In this document: piece after piece, positions 417 through 7,287 of the stretch
How the letters are laid out: each line of letters starts with the position of its first letter
Numbering within the stretch: the stretch's first letter is position 1
The notes under the pieces: model-generated
What the model was told of the DNA's origin: nothing
What the model saw: only the letters and a program-made list of their open reading frames with translations
Databases searched by the model: none
Position numbers and translations under genes: made by a program
NCBI GenBank assembly: GCA_031266495.1
Contig: JAISAX010000053.1
Location: forward strand, 1 to 7,750
Source: Opitutaceae bacterium
GTDB taxonomy: Bacteria > Verrucomicrobiota > Verrucomicrobiae > Opitutales > Opitutaceae
Length of the DNA stretch: 7,750 bases
Direction: 5' to 3'

Positions 417-2288
417 TCACTTTTCGGCAGTGACGAGGGCAGGGCGCTCGATCACGAAACGGAATCCGATGTGGCGGGCCCGGTCGTTGCGCGACTGTTT
501 GACGATGGTCAGCTCGGTCAGCCGGTCGGCCTGGTCGAGGTAGCTGCCGCCTGTGACCCGGGTGTCGCGGGTGTCGTCCACGTCCTGGAGCCACTCGGCG
601 ACGTTGCCGAGGAGATCATGGATGCCGAATTGGTTGGGCGCGAGCGCACCGGCTTCGCGGGTCTGCGCGGCTCCGTTGTCCGCCGACTGGACGCCGCCGG
701 CGCCGCCCTTGATGGCCGCGCGGTACTCGGCCTCGGTGGGCAGGCGGACGGGGGCGCCGAGCAGCCAGCCGAGACGGTTGCAGAATTCGCCGGCCTCGTT
801 CCAGGTCACGGACTCGACGGGGTGCGCGTCTCCGGGATTGCGGCTGGGGTTGGTGTTCATGATGCGCTTGTAAAGGGACTGCGTGACTTCAATGGCGCTT
901 GTCTGGATTTCGGGGAGATCGGGGATGAGGGCGATGTGGGCATAGATATCGTCCTGCAGAGGGCCGATGTCGGTCTTCTTGAGGTTGAGCCAGGAGAGGC
1001 GGATCTTGCGGATGCCGCTGTTGAGCCGGCTGCGGGGGAAGTCGGTCTCGATTTTCTCGAGCAGGGCGACGGCGGCGGGGATGTCGAGCTCGGCGGCCAC
1101 GACATGGCGGCGGGAGAGGGCGAGGCCGATCTGCTTGTCCAGGGCTTCGAGCTTGTGCCCGAGCATGCGGGAGTGGGTGGTCTGGCTCCGGATTTCGAGT
1201 TCGTCCACCCGGGCGGAGGAGACGAAGCGGCTGCGGGGGAAGGTGGTGTTGATCTCGCGCTGGATGGCGGCGGCCCGGGTGTAGAGGCGGGCGGCTTCGT
1301 CGTAATCGGCGATGAGGTCGGCGTGTTCGGCGGCGGTAATGTGTTTTTCGATTTCGTCGGCGGCGTCGGCGGCGTTGAGGGTCTCGATTTCGGCGTCGAT
1401 CTTGTCCACGCCCTGCACGTCAACGAAGCGGGTGCGGGGGTATTCGCCGTTGATCCTGACCTGGAGGTCGCGGGCGGTGGTGAAGGCGGCAATGGCGTCG
1501 CGCCAGCGTTTTTCGGCGAGGGCGTTGCGGGCGGCGGTGAGGGCGGCTTCTTTCTGGTGGTTGAGCGGGGCGGCATCGACCGAGGAGAGGGACTGCGAGA
1601 GGGTCGCTTCGCGCATGTAGTTCTTGTATTCGGTGCTGGCGCTGGTGACGTTGATCTCGCGCTGGAGGCGGAGGGCTTCTTCGTAGTCGGCCTTGGCCCG
1701 GGCAATGTCGCCGCGGGCGGCGGCGGTATCGCCTTCTTTTTCGAGCTGGCCGATGCGGCCGACGATGTCGCGGGCGCGGGCCGAATCGAACCGGCTTTCG
1801 AGGTCGCGCAGGCGGTTGGCCTGTTCGTAGCTGGAGAGGGGGAGGCGGCGGACGATGTCGCGCTGGATGGCGACGGCCTTTTCCAGGGCCTGGAGGGCTT
1901 CGGGGGTGAATACGCCGGCGTCGGCCACTTGCCGGTACTGCTTTTCGAGGTCGTCCACCTGCCTGATCAGGGCGATCACGGCGGGGTCGTCGATCAGTTG
2001 CGAGGTGGCGGGATCGTCGAGCTTGCCGGGGCCGAGGTTGGCGAGCACGTAATAGAGAGTGCCCAGCATGGCGAGGCCCAAGGCAGCGAGAAGCACCTTG
2101 TACAGTTTTTGCCAGATGGTGGCGAGGCGGCGGCGGAAACGGAACCTTGGCATAGAGGGGAGAGGTTTGTCAGCCAAGGGGAAGTCGCGGCCAAATGCAA
2201 CGGATTCTCTCGCGGGTTTTTTTTCAGTGCGGGCGGGGGGAGGGGGGCGGCGGATTTTGCGCGGAACGGGCGGTTGTGGTCTCGACAT
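417..2288 (-). CDS. Membrane-anchored helical-repeat protein with SUMF1/FGE-like domain lacking catalytic cysteines
   Basis: The 623-residue reading has a Pro/Arg-rich start, one hydrophobic segment (about 63-84) and a long helical region (about 95-440). That region repeats a pattern of an Ala-rich helix, then LQREIN or a variant, then PRSRFV or a variant (around 206-213, 275-288, 342-356, 411-421), resembling TPR-like repeats. The C-terminal part (about 465-613) matches the formylglycine-generating enzyme/SUMF1 fold: EVTQSLY, NPS, PVESVTW, EFC, RLPTEAEY, NQFGIHDLLGNVAEW, GGSY, IGFRFV. The domain is short, and the only cysteine is C503 in the EFC motif, so the cysteines that do FGE chemistry between GGSY and GFR are missing. 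A structural or ligand-binding role is more likely than sulfatase activation. Met46 (codon at 2151-2153) is an attractive alternative start: it puts a basic stretch directly before the membrane helix and removes the low-complexity leader. Neither start has a clear ribosome binding site. The gene diverges from tyrA. Confidence 0.85.
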   Translation of the reverse strand: MSRPQPPVPRKIRRPPPPARTEKKPARESVAFGRDFPLADKPLPSMPRFRFRRRLATIWQKLYKVLLAALGLAMLGTLYYVLANLGPGKLDDPATSQLIDDPAVIALIRQVDDLEKQYRQVADAGVFTPEALQALEKAVAIQRDIVRRLPLSSYEQANRLRDLESRFDSARARDIVGRIGQLEKEGDTAAARGDIARAKADYEEALRLQREINVTSASTEYKNYMREATLSQSLSSVDAAPLNHQKEAALTAARNALAEKRWRDAIAAFTTARDLQVRINGEYPRTRFVDVQGVDKIDAEIETLNAADAADEIEKHITAAEHADLIADYDEAARLYTRAAAIQREINTTFPRSRFVSSARVDELEIRSQTTHSRMLGHKLEALDKQIGLALSRRHVVAAELDIPAAVALLEKIETDFPRSRLNSGIRKIRLSWLNLKKTDIGPLQDDIYAHIALIPDLPEIQTSAIEVTQSLYKRIMNTNPSRNPGDAHPVESVTWNEAGEFCNRLGWLLGAPVRLPTEAEYRAAIKGGAGGVQSADNGAAQTREAGALAPNQFGIHDLLGNVAEWLQDVDDTRDTRVTGGSYLDQADRLTELTIVKQSRNDRARHIGFRFVIERPALVTAEK

Positions 2289-2317
2289 CGGGGGCGGGTT
2301 GGTCGTTTCTCGGCGGG

Positions 2318-3171
2318 GTGAGTATCGAACACCTCGTTATCCTTGCCCCCGGGTTGCTGGGGGGGTCCGTGGCCAGGGCGGCGCGCGCCCGCGGGCTGGC
2401 GGGGCGCATCACGATCTGGGCGCGGCGGGCGGAGACGCGGGCGGCGCTGCGCGGGCAGCCGTGGTGCGACGCGGTGGCGGAGTCGCCGGAGGCCGCGGTG
2501 CGCGAGGCGTCGCTGGTGGTGCTGGCGGCGCCGGTGGCGTCGATCATCGAACTGGCGCGGCAGGTCGGCCCGCAGGTGGCGGCGGGCGCGGTGGTGACGG
2601 ATGTGGGCAGCGTGAAGGCGCGGTTGTGCCACGAGGCGCGCACGGCGATGCGACCGGGGGTGGTGTTTGTCGGCTCGCACCCGATGGCGGGGAGCGAGAA
2701 GACGGGCTGGGTAAATGGTTCGGAGGCGCTTTTCGAGAAGCGCACGTGTTTCGTGACGCCGTATCCGGGCTCGCCCGAGGCGGCGGTGCGCAGGGTGACG
2801 GATTTCTGGCGGGATCTCGGCTCGATGGTGGTCTCGCTCACGCCGGAACTGCACGACGAGGTGGTGGCGCATATCAGCCACCTGCCGCAGGCGGTGGCCA
2901 CGGTGCTGGCGGATACGCTGGCGGGGCGGCCGGGCGAGTGGCGACACCTGGGGGGGGGGGGCTGCGCGATTCCACGCGGATCGCCGCGAGTGACGCCACG
3001 ATGTGGGTGGAGATTTTCCAGCAAAACCGCGACCACGTGCTGCGCGCGCTGGAGCGGTTTTCGGGGCAGTTGCAGGATTTCCAGGCGGCGCTGGCAAACC
3101 ACGACTGGCCGGCGCTCCGGCGGCAGCTCGAACTGGGCAAGGCCTGGCGCGACGGGTTCCGGCCGCAATAG
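2318..3171 (+). CDS. tyrA: Prephenate dehydrogenase TyrA, split by a frameshift at a G12 tract
   Basis: This enzyme converts prephenate to 4-hydroxyphenylpyruvate with NAD+, in tyrosine synthesis in the cytoplasm. From a GTG at 2318 the frame shows the dinucleotide-binding start (VILAPGLLGGS, residues 7-17), TDVGSVK (94-100), SHPMAGSEKTG with the family's conserved His at 121, and HDEVVAHISHLPQA (179-192). The family's following segment (GGG-LRDSTRIA, then a helical tail ending GFRPQ) continues only in another frame, from 2962 to the TAG at 3169-3171. The break lies in twelve G at 2950-2961; one more G or two fewer would restore about 284 residues, normal for a TyrA without AroQ or ACT domains. 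As given, the upstream frame has no stop until 4630 and would run into the acyltransferase. This may be a sequencing error, a true mutation or a slippage site. The start follows a G-rich stretch. Confidence 0.88.
2950..2961 (+). repeat. Run of twelve G inside tyrA
   Basis: Twelve consecutive G encode the glycine stretch that precedes the conserved LRDSTRIA segment of TyrA. The two halves of the protein are in different frames on either side, so the tract length as given is off by +1 or -2 from a working gene. Tracts like this are prone to slippage in replication and to length errors in sequencing. Confidence 0.9.
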
Positions 3172-3283
3172 AGTCCGTTTTGTACGGTTCCTACGGTTGC
3201 GGCTTCGCCGTTCCGTGAACCTCCTTGCGGGAAGAAACTTCGCTTGCGGGGCGGGTGACGGTTTCCAGCATGATCCGTTTTCC

Positions 3284-4630
3284 ATGTCAGAGACCACCCA
3301 ACCCGACCTCGACGGAGCACCGGCCACTGTCGGGCGCACCCGGCGCCGTTCCCTGCGCCGGACCGCCGGCTTCCTGAAGCGTCTTCGCTGGTGGCTGGAG
3401 GCGGTCGGATACGAACTCTGCGAGAGCACGCTGGCCCTGCTGCCGGCGGCGACCGTGGCGCACTGGGGCGAGATGATCGGCGAAACATGCTGGCGGCTGC
3501 TCGGCAGCCGGCGGCGGACGGTGCGGCGCAATCTCCGCATCGCTTTTGCCGGCGAAAAAACCCTCGCCGAAATCGATGTGATGACGCGCGAGGTTTTCCG
3601 GCGCAGCGGCGCCAATCTGCTTTCGGCCCTGCGTTGCGTAAAAATCCGGCAAGACGAATTGCGCCGGCTGGTGACCGTGGCGAACCCCGGGCTGATCGCG
3701 GAAATTCTGGCCGCAGACACCGGCGGCGTGGTCGGCATCCTGCCGCACATGGGCAACTGGGAAGCGCTGTCGCAGATGTTTCCGTTGCTGGTGCCTGACC
3801 GGCCGACCGGGACGATCTACCGTTTCATCAAAAACCCGATGCTCGACCGGCGGATCAAGGAGGCCCGCCAGCGCATGGGCATGGTGCTGTTCGAAAAACA
3901 TTCGGGTCCACTGGAAATGGCGGCGTTTCTGCGCCGGCGAGGCTGGCTCGGCGTGCTCGCGGACCAGAGGGTGGAGCGGGTGGGCGAAATCGTTCCCTAC
4001 TTCGGGCGCCTCACGAGTTGCACGCCGTTGCCGGCTCTGATGGCGCGACGCACGGGCGCGACCATCTTCGGCATCTCCATGCGCACGACATCGCCGGGCC
4101 ATTGGCGTCTGAAATTTCACCGGCTGGCCGACAGCACCTCCTCGACGACGGCATGCATGCGCCTGCTGGAGGAAGCGATCCGGGAGAGCCCGGAAGATGT
4201 TTTCTGGTTGCAGGACCGCTGGCGGGTGCGGCGGGACAACCCCGCCTCGCTCAGCGGCCGGCCGCCCCGCGACGCGGCCGCATCGGCCTGGAGCAAACCG
4301 CGCCGCGCGCTCGTCTGGGTTGGCGACCCGGCCCGGGCCCCGCAACTGCCAAAAGCCGCGGTCGGGGATCTGTTGTGGGAATATGTGCTGCCGGCGGGAA
4401 ACCCCACGCCGGCATGGCTGCCGGACGGGGCTCGCATCCATATACTGAATACGGCCTGCGCGGACATCCCGACCCTGGCGGGAGGGTTGCGGGGGATTGA
4501 CGAGGCGGCGGATTTGCCTCTGGAGTTCGTGCGGGTGGACAAGGAGAATCGGGCCGTGCAAAAAGCCTGCCTGAAGCTGGCTCTGCCCGTGCTCGCGCCA
4601 TTGCCGGGAAAGGAGACCGTGAATCCGTGA
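3284..4630 (+). CDS. Lipid A biosynthesis acyltransferase-like protein (LpxL/HtrB family) with C-terminal extension
   Basis: Family members move an acyl chain onto the lipid A precursor at the inner face of the cytoplasmic membrane. The 448-residue product has a basic N-terminus, the RRRTVRRNLRIAF block (76-88), the catalytic HX4E motif in PHMGNWE (H155, E160), LADQRVERVGEIVPYFGR (225-242) and FWLQDRWR (307-314), all in family order. The usual protein is about 300 residues. Here roughly 115 extra residues (about 335-448) follow, with a hydrophobic strand-like RALVWVG and alternating strand/helix character; I do not recognise this part. I chose the ATG at 3284 because upstream in-frame sequence is the out-of-frame shadow of tyrA. 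The 112-base gap after tyrA shows no clear promoter. The stop overlaps the next gene's start by four bases, indicating co-translation. Its exact acyl substrate cannot be read from the sequence. Confidence 0.87.
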   Translation: MSETTQPDLDGAPATVGRTRRRSLRRTAGFLKRLRWWLEAVGYELCESTLALLPAATVAHWGEMIGETCWRLLGSRRRTVRRNLRIAFAGEKTLAEIDVMTREVFRRSGANLLSALRCVKIRQDELRRLVTVANPGLIAEILAADTGGVVGILPHMGNWEALSQMFPLLVPDRPTGTIYRFIKNPMLDRRIKEARQRMGMVLFEKHSGPLEMAAFLRRRGWLGVLADQRVERVGEIVPYFGRLTSCTPLPALMARRTGATIFGISMRTTSPGHWRLKFHRLADSTSSTTACMRLLEEAIRESPEDVFWLQDRWRVRRDNPASLSGRPPRDAAASAWSKPRRALVWVGDPARAPQLPKAAVGDLLWEYVLPAGNPTPAWLPDGARIHILNTACADIPTLAGGLRGIDEAADLPLEFVRVDKENRAVQKACLKLALPVLAPLPGKETVNP

Positions 4631-5598
4631 GCGCGGCAACCAGCGGGAACAGACCCAGCCGCATCCGGGTACTTTCCGATGGCCGGCCGGGTCACGAAAA
4701 CCAGAGCATCGGCCTGGCGCAGGCCGTGCAGCGGCGACTCGGCGGCGCGACAGCGGTGGCGATCGACCTGGTGCGATTTGCCGCTGGCTCCGGTCCCGGC
4801 GAACGCATCCGGGCTGCGCGGGCGGAGGGGGAAGGCGCGCCGCGGGTTGTCATCGCGGCGGGGCATTCCACGCACCTCCCGCTGTGGCTGGCGGCGAGAC
4901 GCTTCGGGGCGCCATCGGTGGTCATCATGAAACCGTCGTTGCCTTCATGGCTGTTTGACCTGTGCCTGGCGCCGCGGCACGACTTGCGTGGCGTCGTTGC
5001 CGGCGGGGCGGATGAAGGGAGCGGGCGAATCGTGCCGACTTTTGGCGCGCTCAACCGCCTGCCGGAAAGGACGGCAGCGGAGATGGCGGCGGCGAAGGAG
5101 CCGCGAGGGCTTCTTTTGCTGGGAGGCCCTTCGAAACATCACGGTTGGGCTACGGCGGCGCTCGTGCCGGCGGTGGTCGCGGTGCTGGCGGCCCGTCCGG
5201 ATCTGTCATGGACGATCGGAGACTCGCGTCGTACACCGGCGGATACGCTGGAACGGCTGCGGGCCGCGGGCGCGCCGGCGCAGTTCGCGCCGCACGGACA
5301 AACGGAGCCCGGCTGGCTGCCGGAGCAACTGGCGAGAGCAAGCGAGGCATGGGTGACGGAGGACAGCGTTTCGATGGTCCACGAGGCGGTGACGGCCGGA
5401 GCCCGGACGGGCGTGCTGCCGGTGCCGCGCCTGCGGGCGAACGATCGGGTGGCTCGGGCCGTGGACGAACTCGTGGCGGCGGGGTATGCCACGCGGTTCG
5501 CAGACTGGCAGGCAGGCGGACGAGGACTGCCGGAGCCGCCGGGCCTGCTTCACGAGACCGGACGATGCGCGGGGATTGTTGTGAAACGGATTTTTTAG
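4627..5598 (+). CDS. ELM1/GtrOC1-family putative glycosyltransferase
   Basis: The 323-residue product matches the family named after plant mitochondrial fission protein ELM1 (formerly DUF1022), whose bacterial members are treated as putative GT-B-like glycosyltransferases. Visible signatures are VLSDGRPGHENQSIGL (15-30), AGHSTHLPLWLAARRFG (78-94), VVIMKPSLP (98-106), LAPRHD (114-119), LLLLGGPSKHHGW (162-174) and the C-terminal VTEDSVSMVHEA (243-254). Length is normal and no frame break is seen. It starts at a GTG whose GTGA overlaps the acyltransferase stop, so the two are almost certainly one operon, supporting a role in lipid A core or another surface glycolipid. The fission name should not be taken as a function in bacteria. 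Its TAG stop shares its last base with the inverted repeat of the following cassette. Confidence 0.88.
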   Translation: MSAATSGNRPSRIRVLSDGRPGHENQSIGLAQAVQRRLGGATAVAIDLVRFAAGSGPGERIRAARAEGEGAPRVVIAAGHSTHLPLWLAARRFGAPSVVIMKPSLPSWLFDLCLAPRHDLRGVVAGGADEGSGRIVPTFGALNRLPERTAAEMAAAKEPRGLLLLGGPSKHHGWATAALVPAVVAVLAARPDLSWTIGDSRRTPADTLERLRAAGAPAQFAPHGQTEPGWLPEQLARASEAWVTEDSVSMVHEAVTAGARTGVLPVPRLRANDRVARAVDELVAAGYATRFADWQAGGRGLPEPPGLLHETGRCAGIVVKRIF

Positions 5599-5625
5599 CC
5601 CACGGAACACACGGAATACACGGAA
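5598..5625 (+). repeat. Left inverted repeat of the cassette
   Basis: This arm contains cacggaaca, cacggaata and cacggaaga in tandem (5601-5627) and is identical over 28 bases to the reverse complement of 6012-6039. Its first base is the last base of the upstream TAG stop. Its inner end also supplies GGAAG (5622-5626), eight bases before the ATG of the enclosed gene, so the repeat appears to provide the ribosome binding site. Confidence 0.9.
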
Positions 5626-5634
5626 GAAAAATAC

Positions 5635-6009
5635 ATGGAATTGATATTTAAAGACGAAACGTATCGCATCCTCGGTGCCTGCTTTGAGGTCTATAAGGAG
5701 AAGGGATGTGGATTTCTTGAAGCGGTTTTCCAGGAATGCCTGGAGATGGAGCTTGAGTCGCAGGGGATTCCCTTCGAAACCCAAAAAATGCTCCCCCTGA
5801 CTTACAAGGGCAGGCCGTTGAAACAGACATACAAAGCCGATCTCATCTGTTTTGGAAAAGTGTTGGTCGAGCTCAAGGCAGTCTCGAAACTGGCGAACGA
5901 ACATCGGGCGCAGATTCAGAACTACCTGCATGCAACTGGCCTGAAGGTGGGTCTTCTGGTCAATTTCGGACACTTCCCGAAAGTGGAACACGAGCGATTC
6001 GTTATCTGA
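5635..6009 (+). CDS. GxxExxY family protein (PD-(D/E)XK nuclease-like)
   Basis: The 124-residue product has the family signature GFLEAVFQE (26-34, with Phe where Tyr is usual), YKGRPLKQTYKADLI (57-71), the nuclease-type D69...E79-x-K81 arrangement in ADLI...VELKA, then QIQNYLHATG (93-102) and GLLVNFG (106-112). This order and length are those of complete GxxExxY proteins, which carry a PD-(D/E)XK-like core; their biological role is not established as far as I know. The putative acidic and lysine residues are intact, so it may be active. GGAAG sits eight bases before the ATG, inside the left repeat. Base composition is low for the window: I counted 43% and 50% GC over 5641-5700 and 5701-5760, against 78% over 5221-5280 in the preceding gene. 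The stop lies two bases before the right repeat. It is probably a selfish or accessory gene rather than part of the surface-glycan pathway. Confidence 0.88.
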   Translation: MELIFKDETYRILGACFEVYKEKGCGFLEAVFQECLEMELESQGIPFETQKMLPLTYKGRPLKQTYKADLICFGKVLVELKAVSKLANEHRAQIQNYLHATGLKVGLLVNFGHFPKVEHERFVI

Positions 6010-6011
6010 TT

Positions 6012-6039
6012 TTCCGTGTATTCCGTGTGTTCCGTGGGC
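6012..6039 (-). repeat. Right inverted repeat of the cassette
   Basis: These 28 bases are the exact reverse complement of 5598-5625. The arm starts two bases after the enclosed gene's TGA and is followed by a 73-base spacer (6040-6112) to the next gene. In an RNA crossing the whole cassette the two arms could pair and bring the gene into a large loop. Confidence 0.9.
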
Positions 6040-6112
6040 AATCCTTCCGGGATTCAGCCGGACCGCGGGAAAGGGGGCTTGCCAAGCGTAACGGCCGGAC
6101 TCCCATGGAAAC

Positions 6113-7132
6113 ATGCGAATTTTACAGGTCGGCTATGCACAAACACGCCGTTGGGGCAAGGCGCGGGTCAGCACGGAACACAAGCTGTACAACGGTCTGG
6201 TCCGCAATTTTCATAACGTGCTTCATTTCAGCGACCGGGATATCGCCGCTTTTCTCGCTCCGTTTGGCTGGCGCGATTTGGGGCGCGGGGCGGCCAACCG
6301 GAAGTTGATCGAGGTGGCTGACAATTTTCGGCCAGACATGATCTTGCTCGGCCATTGCGATATTATCACGAACGCCACACTCGCGGAAATCCGGCGAAGA
6401 TTGCCGGAGGTCCGCATTGCATTCAGGAACCTGGATCCGCTGTTTGTCCCCCACAACGTCGAGGCCATCCATGACCGTACTACCGTGGTGGATACCATTT
6501 TTATCTCCACCGCGGGGCCGGGGCTGGATCAATTCAGGGGAAAGCGGGCCACTATCCATTACATCCCCAACCCGGTCGATGCAGCGGTGGAGTGTTTCAA
6601 CAATGCGGAGAAGGAGCACTTGCCCTGCGATCTGTTTTTTTGCGGCAACAGCAACGAGCACACCCGGCGCAAAGACATGGTGGTGGCTCTGAAAAAGGTC
6701 TTCGAAGGCAGCGATATTGTTTTCAAGGCATTCGGTTACCTCGGCGAACCGCCCGTATGGGGGCGCGATTACGATGCGGTGCTTGCCCGGGGACGGATGG
6801 GACTGAATCTGAACCGGCAGGAGGGTGATTATCTTTATTCTTCGGATCGCCTGGCCCAGTTGATGGGCAACGGGATTGTTCCGTTCATCCACAATGCCTG
6901 CCGGATGCAGGATCTGATCGGGCCGGACCGGGCGGTTTTTTTCGAAAAACAGGAGGAACTCGTTGAAAAAATCCGCCAACTGAAAGCGGACGATGCGCTG
7001 CGCCGCCGGATCGCGGCGGAAGGCCGGCGCTTTTACCGGGAGCATTTTTCCAGCGAACGCGTTGCCCAATACATCGTCGAGCGGACTACGGGGCAGCCCT
7101 TCAGCCACGACTACATCTGGGCCGGTTACTGA
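6113..7132 (+). CDS. CgeB-like glycosyltransferase (GT-B type)
   Basis: The 339-residue product looks like a GT-B glycosyltransferase. The N-terminal half begins MRILQVGYAQ and contains PDMILLGHCD (74-83) and FRNLDPLFVPHN (104-115). A linker with YIPNPVD (150-156) leads to a C-terminal nucleotide-sugar-binding half with DLFFCGN (173-179), FKAFGYLG (204-211), MGLNLNR (229-235) and YSSDRLAQLMGNGIVPFI (242-259), as in the group-1-like/CgeB domain, then a closing helix around RFYREHFSSERVAQYI. No signal peptide is seen, so it probably acts at the cytoplasmic face. The donor and acceptor are unknown. GC is lower than in the upstream genes (52% over 6301-6360), which may indicate separate acquisition. 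Weak ribosome-binding GGAA lies just before the ATG at 6113. It may have been in the same operon as the ELM1-family gene before the cassette arrived. Confidence 0.8.
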   Translation: MRILQVGYAQTRRWGKARVSTEHKLYNGLVRNFHNVLHFSDRDIAAFLAPFGWRDLGRGAANRKLIEVADNFRPDMILLGHCDIITNATLAEIRRRLPEVRIAFRNLDPLFVPHNVEAIHDRTTVVDTIFISTAGPGLDQFRGKRATIHYIPNPVDAAVECFNNAEKEHLPCDLFFCGNSNEHTRRKDMVVALKKVFEGSDIVFKAFGYLGEPPVWGRDYDAVLARGRMGLNLNRQEGDYLYSSDRLAQLMGNGIVPFIHNACRMQDLIGPDRAVFFEKQEELVEKIRQLKADDALRRRIAAEGRRFYREHFSSERVAQYIVERTTGQPFSHDYIWAGY

Positions 7133-7271
7133 CTGACGTTACGCGGTTCGACTGTAGGGGCTTCGCTTGCGAAGCCCTCAAGGGCCTGACACAAGTGGAA
7201 ATACGTCAATTCGTTTGCCTGGCACGGGCTTCGCAAGCGAAGCCCCTACGAGAGGTACCGCGTAACATCAG
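7133..7271. repeat. Hairpin-rich inverted-repeat element (MITE- or REP-like)
   Basis: Ends ctgacgttacgcggt (7133-7147) and accgcgtaacatcag (7257-7271) are inverted copies with one mismatch. Inside them, 7154-7177 and 7226-7249 are perfect 24-base inverted copies of each other. Each inner arm is also a hairpin by itself: gggcttcgc/gcgaagccc with a TT loop (7158-7177) or an AA loop (7226-7245). The whole could fold as a large cruciform or as two small hairpins. It begins on the base after the glycosyltransferase stop codon and carries no gene. The structure is seen directly; mobility is inferred. Confidence 0.8.
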
Positions 7272-7287
7272 TTACTGACTGGAGTCG

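Follow-up and report, generated by a model that had tools for sequence, protein, structure and literature searches.

Organization of the locus

The window, that is the whole stretch of DNA analysed (7,750 nt of contig JAISAX010000053.1 from an Opitutaceae bacterium, assembly GCA_031266495.1), carries a unit of 442 bp (arm, gene and arm) between an ELM1-like gene and a glycosyltransferase gene. The features of this region are the following.

4627-5598, + strand: upstream neighbour, ELM1-like gene (PF06258), co-directional
5598-5625, + strand: left inverted arm, GCC followed by the tandem units CACGGAACA, CACGGAATA and CACGGAA
5601-5609, 5610-5618 and 5619-5625, + strand: the left-arm units CACGGAACA, CACGGAATA and CACGGAA, respectively
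5626-5634: spacer of 9 nt between left arm and start codon
5635-6009, + strand: GxxExxY gene, ATG start, intact ORF of 124 aa
6010-6011: spacer of 2 nt between stop codon and right arm
6012-6039, - strand: right inverted arm, perfect reverse complement of the left arm
6113-7132, + strand: downstream neighbour, glycosyltransferase gene (PF13524), co-directional

Each of the two arms, at 5598-5625 and 6012-6039, measures 28 nt; they are 100% complementary and separated by 386 nt, and they form the longest perfect inverted repeat among those listed for the window. The first base of the left arm is also the final base of the TAG stop codon of the ELM1-like gene, a 1-base overlap. The arm words (CACGGAANA) recur with a period of 9: shifted by 9, the arm matches itself at 16 of 19 positions, and the other shifts from 5 to 12 give no more than 8 matches. 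A sequence-only reading made earlier had described a low-GC GxxExxY gene packed with almost no spare DNA between perfect 28-bp inverted arms and lacking a transposase, all of which was borne out by the coordinates above and by the profile matches and GC values given below. The same reading counted three 9-base units per arm, which is right as to the period, but the third unit, CACGGAA, is incomplete with 7 of 9 bases.

No transposase gene was found among the ORFs and profile matches of the 442-bp unit, and no sigma-70-like promoter at 5400-6200. The window contains no Rfam family at gathering score, rRNA included, and a known RNA family was rejected as a candidate on this score. An antisense ORF (5206-6114) overlaps the unit and is an example of a repeat feeding a spurious ORF. 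In four distant relatives, whose ELM1 is 42-50% identical, another gene directly follows ELM1 and no cassette is seen by eye.

The GxxExxY protein

The product of ORF 5635-6009 is a full-length member of the GxxExxY family, matching PF13366 (E 4.5e-42, 143.6 bits for a cut-off of 22) and TIGR04256 (E 2.6e-42, 143.9 bits for a cut-off of 35), both over their full length. Residues E29, D69, E79 and K81 are invariant across an alignment of 30 close homologues, and the core fold of the protein contains the catalytic D ... ExK residues that define the PD-(D/E)XK superfamily. The GC content of the gene is 0.49 vs 0.64 for the window. Relatives of the protein are at most 81% identical among the matches listed, the best named one among them being from Opitutaceae bacterium TAV1 (79% identical), and the family counts at least 7037 proteins at E 0.001 or better.

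Only PF13366 and TIGR04256 were matched by the product, the RAYT domain (HUH/Y1 tyrosine transposase) being absent, and a sequence search of solved structures gave no match at E up to 1. A defence gene was rejected, with no PADLOC match at E 0.001, as was phage cargo, with no match in the phage collection and no PHROG match. A narrow search of viral contigs with two peptide patterns from close homologues returned no match; an algal virus genome is described in one section of PMC12085832 as listing a GxxExxY protein. No plasmid DNA relative of the cassette was found, the distant protein matches on plasmids numbering eight. In the open-access literature searched, no functional study came up under GxxExxY, PDDEXK_3, PF13366 or TIGR04256 and no link of these names to repeats, nor any description of arms around GxxExxY genes or occurrence of the arm string cacggaacacacgg.

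Inverted arms around other GxxExxY genes

Each gene was scored by the best inverted repeat that its two flanks form with each other, with a threshold of 13. The set comprised 107 genes, made up of the window gene and 70 (L040-L109), 26 (L110-L135) and 10 (L146-L155) others. Inverted arms at threshold were found for 82 of the 107, as compared with 0/275 unrelated control ORFs of the same loci and 13/535 mismatched flank pairs (left of one gene with right of another). Since no control ORF reaches 13 and the window arm pair scores 28, a chance origin of the arms is excluded. By source, the 82 comprise the window gene; 55 of the 70 genes from L040-L109, which come from 20 of 22 Verrucomicrobiae genomes preselected by an exact CACGGAA triple and cover 74 of 77 GxxExxY matches with one gene scored per locus; 19 of the 26 from L110-L135, the best-scoring matches of the class, chosen without regard to arms; and 7 of the 10 from L146-L155, single-gene genomes with arm-pattern matches. 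No GxxExxY match was found in the other two genomes with the exact triple, G240 and G264. When a narrower stretch of flank was scored, arms at threshold were found for 54/71 genes and for 21/36 in a further set. Many of the 25 genes below threshold have one or two arms by eye; in L148, L154 and L155, which come from genomes with hairpins and a single GxxExxY gene, no arm pair of the gene reaches the threshold.

In a second phylum, entered via a Nitrospirae record, the GxxExxY gene was found in 42 of 295 genomes, and with no preselection for arms (29 of the 30 best-scoring loci were scored) arms reached the threshold at 20/29 loci and stayed below it at 9/29, for 21/232 mismatched pairs and 1/65 control ORFs. 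Inverted arms around GxxExxY genes are therefore general and extend beyond the locus studied here. The expectation that most copies would share the same arms holds for the presence of arms, but each gene has an arm sequence of its own and what is common is a grammar. Of eight copies on plasmids of other phyla, two have clear arms (Bacteroides, score 21; Bernardetia, 16) and six fall short of the threshold (Treponema and Sphingomonas with 11, four others with 10 or less). By eye, the flanking repeats of a Fusobacteria plasmid copy (L324) and a Prevotella plasmid copy (L327) seem direct, not inverted, and in Sphingomonas parapaucimobilis (L322) the gene lies between fabD and fabG of the fatty-acid operon.

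Both neighbours are co-directional at 90 of 104 GxxExxY loci, a count which is restricted to these loci and rests on an ORF choice based on GC3. This choice replaced that of the longest ORF (49/104 co-directional), which had been misled by antisense ORFs in GC-rich DNA.

Arm grammar and relation to the protein

Arm sequence varies from gene to gene, even within one genome, and a mobile cassette with one fixed arm sequence was rejected on the ground that arms differ between genes. The common grammar is a CAC-xxA-like word (for example CACGGAA, CACGAAA, CACGAAT, CACAGAT or CGCAAAG) in two to three tandem copies spaced by 8-10 bp. The best period of 81 GxxExxY elements is 9 in 34, 10 in 23, 8 in 16, 11 in 4 and 12 in 4, and thus lies between 8 and 10 in 73 of them. 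None of 164 arms has an internal stem scoring at least 6, and GTAG or CTAC stands near the arm end in 2/164.

Within one element, left and right arms have a mean similarity of 0.89. Across genomes, arm similarity is 0.51 at a protein identity below 35% and 0.80 at 65-75%, and it correlates with protein identity (Mantel r 0.303, 0/1000 permutations); this correlation is not proof of recognition because co-inheritance would give the same. By comparison of the elements, the arms of one element are thus alike, and they differ between elements and between orthologous sites. Mismatches between the arms of the 82 elements comprise 36 that are G-U compatible, 66 of the A-C type on the sense strand and 96 transversions. 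The asymmetry of A-C over G-U has a p value of 0.004. A sense-RNA stem as the selected feature finds no support in these counts.

Gene-less hairpins

Of the 286 genomes of the class, 22 contain the exact CACGGAA triple. Several of these have it in inverted pairs whose members lie tens of bases from each other, too close to hold a gene. A looser pattern of three CACNRA words was found in 180 of the 286 genomes, with 4799 matches vs 60 for the reversed control and up to 269 matches per genome; in G213 and G236 the matches listed are plain tandem repeats. The pattern is present in 156/178 genomes with a GxxExxY gene vs 24/108 without a detected gene (Fisher p 1.6e-29, genomes being counted as independent and relatedness ignored). 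Two genomes have many arm-pattern matches and no detected GxxExxY gene (G045 with 44, G081 with 23); S23 matches are present in G045 and absent from G081.

One genome with a single GxxExxY gene (G210) carries a hairpin of about 199 bp and 29 further copies of it (at least 160 aligned bases) that are 82-96% identical, with arms of the type found around the GxxExxY gene. In two relatives of this genome (G185 and G084) there is no hairpin before the aligned downstream gene, upstream synteny being lost. When gene arms were compared with part lists of hairpins (G008 23/24, G179 10/16, G039 15/34, G018 7/9, G088 10/15, G120 13/22, and G210 10/30 listed, with 146 counted), the best match of the gene arm was a hairpin of its own genome in 4 of 5 genomes and the highest mean similarity was to its own genome in 3 of 5. 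G179 and G088 were left out as queries, their gene arm pair being unreadable, and in G008 the gene arm is not closest to the hairpins of its own genome. The hairpins are dispersed inverted doublets able to form hairpins, as REPINs are, and are extragenic at the sites read. Within genomes, it is the gene-less inverted pair that multiplies.

Empty, hairpin and cassette states of conserved gaps

For three GxxExxY sites of one genome (G230), the flanks were joined and looked for in 120 genomes of the same family. For the gap between two aldehyde dehydrogenase genes (ALDH gap), 52 of 61 loci were resolved in 51 genomes among the matches listed, the gap strings starting at the stop codon and the left flank serving as a position marker only. 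Among these matches the gap is empty (11-25 bp) in 13/51 genomes, measures 42 bp with no hairpin above shuffles in 2/51, measures 75-265 bp without a gene in 13/51, holds the cassette alone in 6/51 and holds longer inserts in 17/51, including five with a gene and one with a remnant. The inverted-repeat score is weak for such short gaps, only 3 of the 13 gaps of 75-265 bp reaching 13, and shuffles were hence added; on this basis 11 of the 13 contain a hairpin that no more than 3 of 200 shuffles equalled, and the other two contain none. ALDH-gap hairpins are of several word types. At one locus (L289), three hairpins of different word type are seen by eye nested in one gap.

For the gap between an ABC ATPase and a permease gene (ABC gap), 20 of 21 loci were resolved in 17 genomes, of which nine are empty, one has a hairpin (L310, by eye) and seven have cassettes; three further ABC-gap cassettes were recognised by flank similarity. 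Empty and filled versions were thus both found at the ALDH and ABC gaps, and the prediction of empty sites therefore holds at these two related sites. Flanks of the compared empty and filled sites are too diverged and therefore show no readable target-site duplication.

Inheritance and movement of the gene

ALDH-site proteins cluster on the tree (98/95 support, 0/500 shuffles as clustered), in a group that also takes in six genes from other places. The nine ABC-site proteins share a supported 17-row clade with the window protein and seven proteins from other places; one row (ABC_L307) is a mistranslated artefact and was disregarded, and the assignment of L152 to the ALDH site was made by eye. 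The 16 loci of this clade, placed by their flanks, are distributed as nine at the ABC site and seven, the window included, at six other places. Because clades are linked to sites and the clade of the window protein occurs at seven places, the cassette with its gene mostly remains at one site over long times and is relocated now and then. The proposal that the cassette inserts between genes agrees with the empty and filled states described above, but needs amending in that the gene mostly stays and the gene-less pairs multiply; taken as a whole, the interpretation given in the sequence-only reading is partly supported.

S23 genes and known repeat systems

In the same genomes, S23-type four-helix-bundle genes (TIGR02436, L220-L249) also have inverted arms of tandem words, at 19 of 28 loci (30 loci were scored, 19 being at threshold, and two short loci were dropped) as compared with 4/224 mismatched flank pairs, and the best period is 7 in 16 of these 19 elements. 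The intervening sequence of Coxiella 23S rRNA, which carries an S23 ORF, is described in PMC4990558 as having a 28-bp terminal stem with tandem GACAGAT heptamers and as being excised by RNase III, and is there called a selfish element. Given this stem and these heptamers, the described selfish element has the same build and the same word length as the S23 elements found here. The unit of the window resembles the intervening sequence in having a small ORF between long inverted arms that hold tandem short units, and differs from it in that the GxxExxY ORF encodes an unrelated nuclease, the repeated unit is 9 bp instead of 7 and the whole lies between protein genes and not in rRNA.

REPINs and RAYT genes, as outlined in PMC3116915, are likewise dispersed intergenic inverted doublets capable of forming hairpins, with a gene beside the same repeat type and several types per genome; the RAYT phylogeny is there reported as largely congruent with that of the species, and mobilisation in trans is proposed. 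Several differences separate the two systems. RAYT is a Y1 tyrosine transposase, whereas GxxExxY is a PD-(D/E)XK nuclease; REP forms an imperfect palindrome that typically ends in GTAG, whereas GxxExxY arms end with GTAG or CTAC in 2/164 cases and are runs of direct 8-10-bp units that are not themselves palindromic (0/164); and the GxxExxY gene lies exactly inside one inverted pair. MITEs are similar in being short, non-autonomous inverted-repeat copies dispersed between genes, but the enzyme looked for with the GxxExxY hairpins was GxxExxY itself, no other matching transposase having come up, and no target-site duplication is readable in their too diverged flanks.

Proposed origin of the unit and alternative explanations

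The explanation that is somewhat favoured by these comparisons is that the 442-bp unit belongs, as the member that carries the gene, to a selfish, REPIN/RAYT-like family of inverted repeats whose nuclease would move hairpins in trans. Short selfish inverted-repeat elements would settle between co-directional genes, and GxxExxY, as a minimal PD-(D/E)XK nuclease with intact catalytic residues, would recognise the units repeated in tandem in its own arms. It would probably do so as a multimer, each protomer being assigned to one unit about a turn in length. The nuclease would then cut or nick at the arms, and the hairpins, rarely the gene cassette, would be copied in trans to new intergenic sites, as has been proposed for RAYT and REPINs. 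Recognition of both arms, or gene conversion between them, might keep the two arms alike. That the nuclease would read its own words and move hairpins in trans is suggested by the likeness to RAYT/REPIN, which lies in a conserved gene within arms, gene-less pairs that multiply, the occurrence of several types in one genome and the fact that the gene for the most part remains in place.

An explanation at the RNA level, in which the arms pair in the operon transcript as in an intervening sequence, RNase III removes the insert, other machinery spreads it and the protein is accessory, is considered unlikely. It would agree with the insertion between co-directional genes, with the S23 genes, which are the ORF of the 23S intervening sequence and, in these same genomes, are built alike but from 7-bp units, and with the stem, tandem heptamers and RNase III excision reported for Coxiella in PMC4990558. 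It leaves the conserved nuclease residues unexplained, and the mismatches between arms (36 G-U vs 66 A-C) are the opposite of what selection on a sense-RNA stem would leave.

It is rather improbable that a RAYT or other transposase moves the hairpins and that GxxExxY is a passenger caught between two of them, although GTAG-type REP repeats are stated in PMC3733652 to be abundant in Opitutus terrae, and 24/108 genomes that lack a detected GxxExxY gene have arm matches. One would not expect a passenger to be boxed at the majority of loci in two phyla, the same arm type stands on both sides of each gene, the unit period is tied to the protein family, and a terminal GTAG or CTAC was seen in only 2/164 arms.

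That the arms are operator sites by which the gene controls its own operon, with the gene-less pairs as a regulon, would suit arms that hug the gene and a nuclease fold that could bind DNA. This is very doubtful in view of the lack of a promoter-like site at 5400-6200, the multiplication of hairpins as near-identical copies within one genome, and hairpin types that differ between orthologous sites, many relatives having no hairpins. Least probable of all, and scarcely credible, is that template switching in replication generates the palindromes on the spot without any mobile system, for while arms matched to each other yet differing between orthologous sites would be expected from it, the near-identical, dispersed copies of about 199 bp in G210 and the link with the presence of the GxxExxY gene stand against it.

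Returning to the trans-mobilisation of hairpins by the nuclease, a wider and distinctly tentative proposal is that GxxExxY and S23 proteins might be the enzymes of two sister kinds of miniature inverted-repeat elements, reading 8-10-base and 7-base words respectively and moving their arms in trans into operon gaps, of which the rRNA intervening sequence would be a special case. The S23 parallel could in this way help to explain the origin of rRNA intervening sequences. If true, the trans-mobilisation reading would define, in bacteria, a system of miniature elements that is based on a PD-(D/E)XK nuclease, would provide a testable role for the large GxxExxY family (at least 7037 proteins) and would explain short intergenic repeats that number in the thousands (4799 matches to the pattern across the 286 genomes), repeats which can feed spurious ORFs. 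The word-like arms should then reveal a recognition code when proteins are compared with their arms.

Other features of the window

A second perfect inverted repeat of 24 nt (GTAGGGGCTTCGCTTGCGAAGCCC) lies past the glycosyltransferase gene at 7154-7249, and is enclosed by an imperfect pair (7122-7147 and 7257-7282) that resembles the sequence at 160-185. A run of 12 G at 2950-2961, where the prephenate dehydrogenase frame breaks, is either a sequencing error or the mark of a pseudogene; ORF 2195-4630 continues from prephenate dehydrogenase into an acyltransferase. Further homopolymer runs are found at 274-283 (10 C) and 393-404 (12 G). The sulfatase-modifying-factor-like gene at 417-2288 (- strand) contains internal coding repeats at 839-1867, four of which are spaced by 201 bp.
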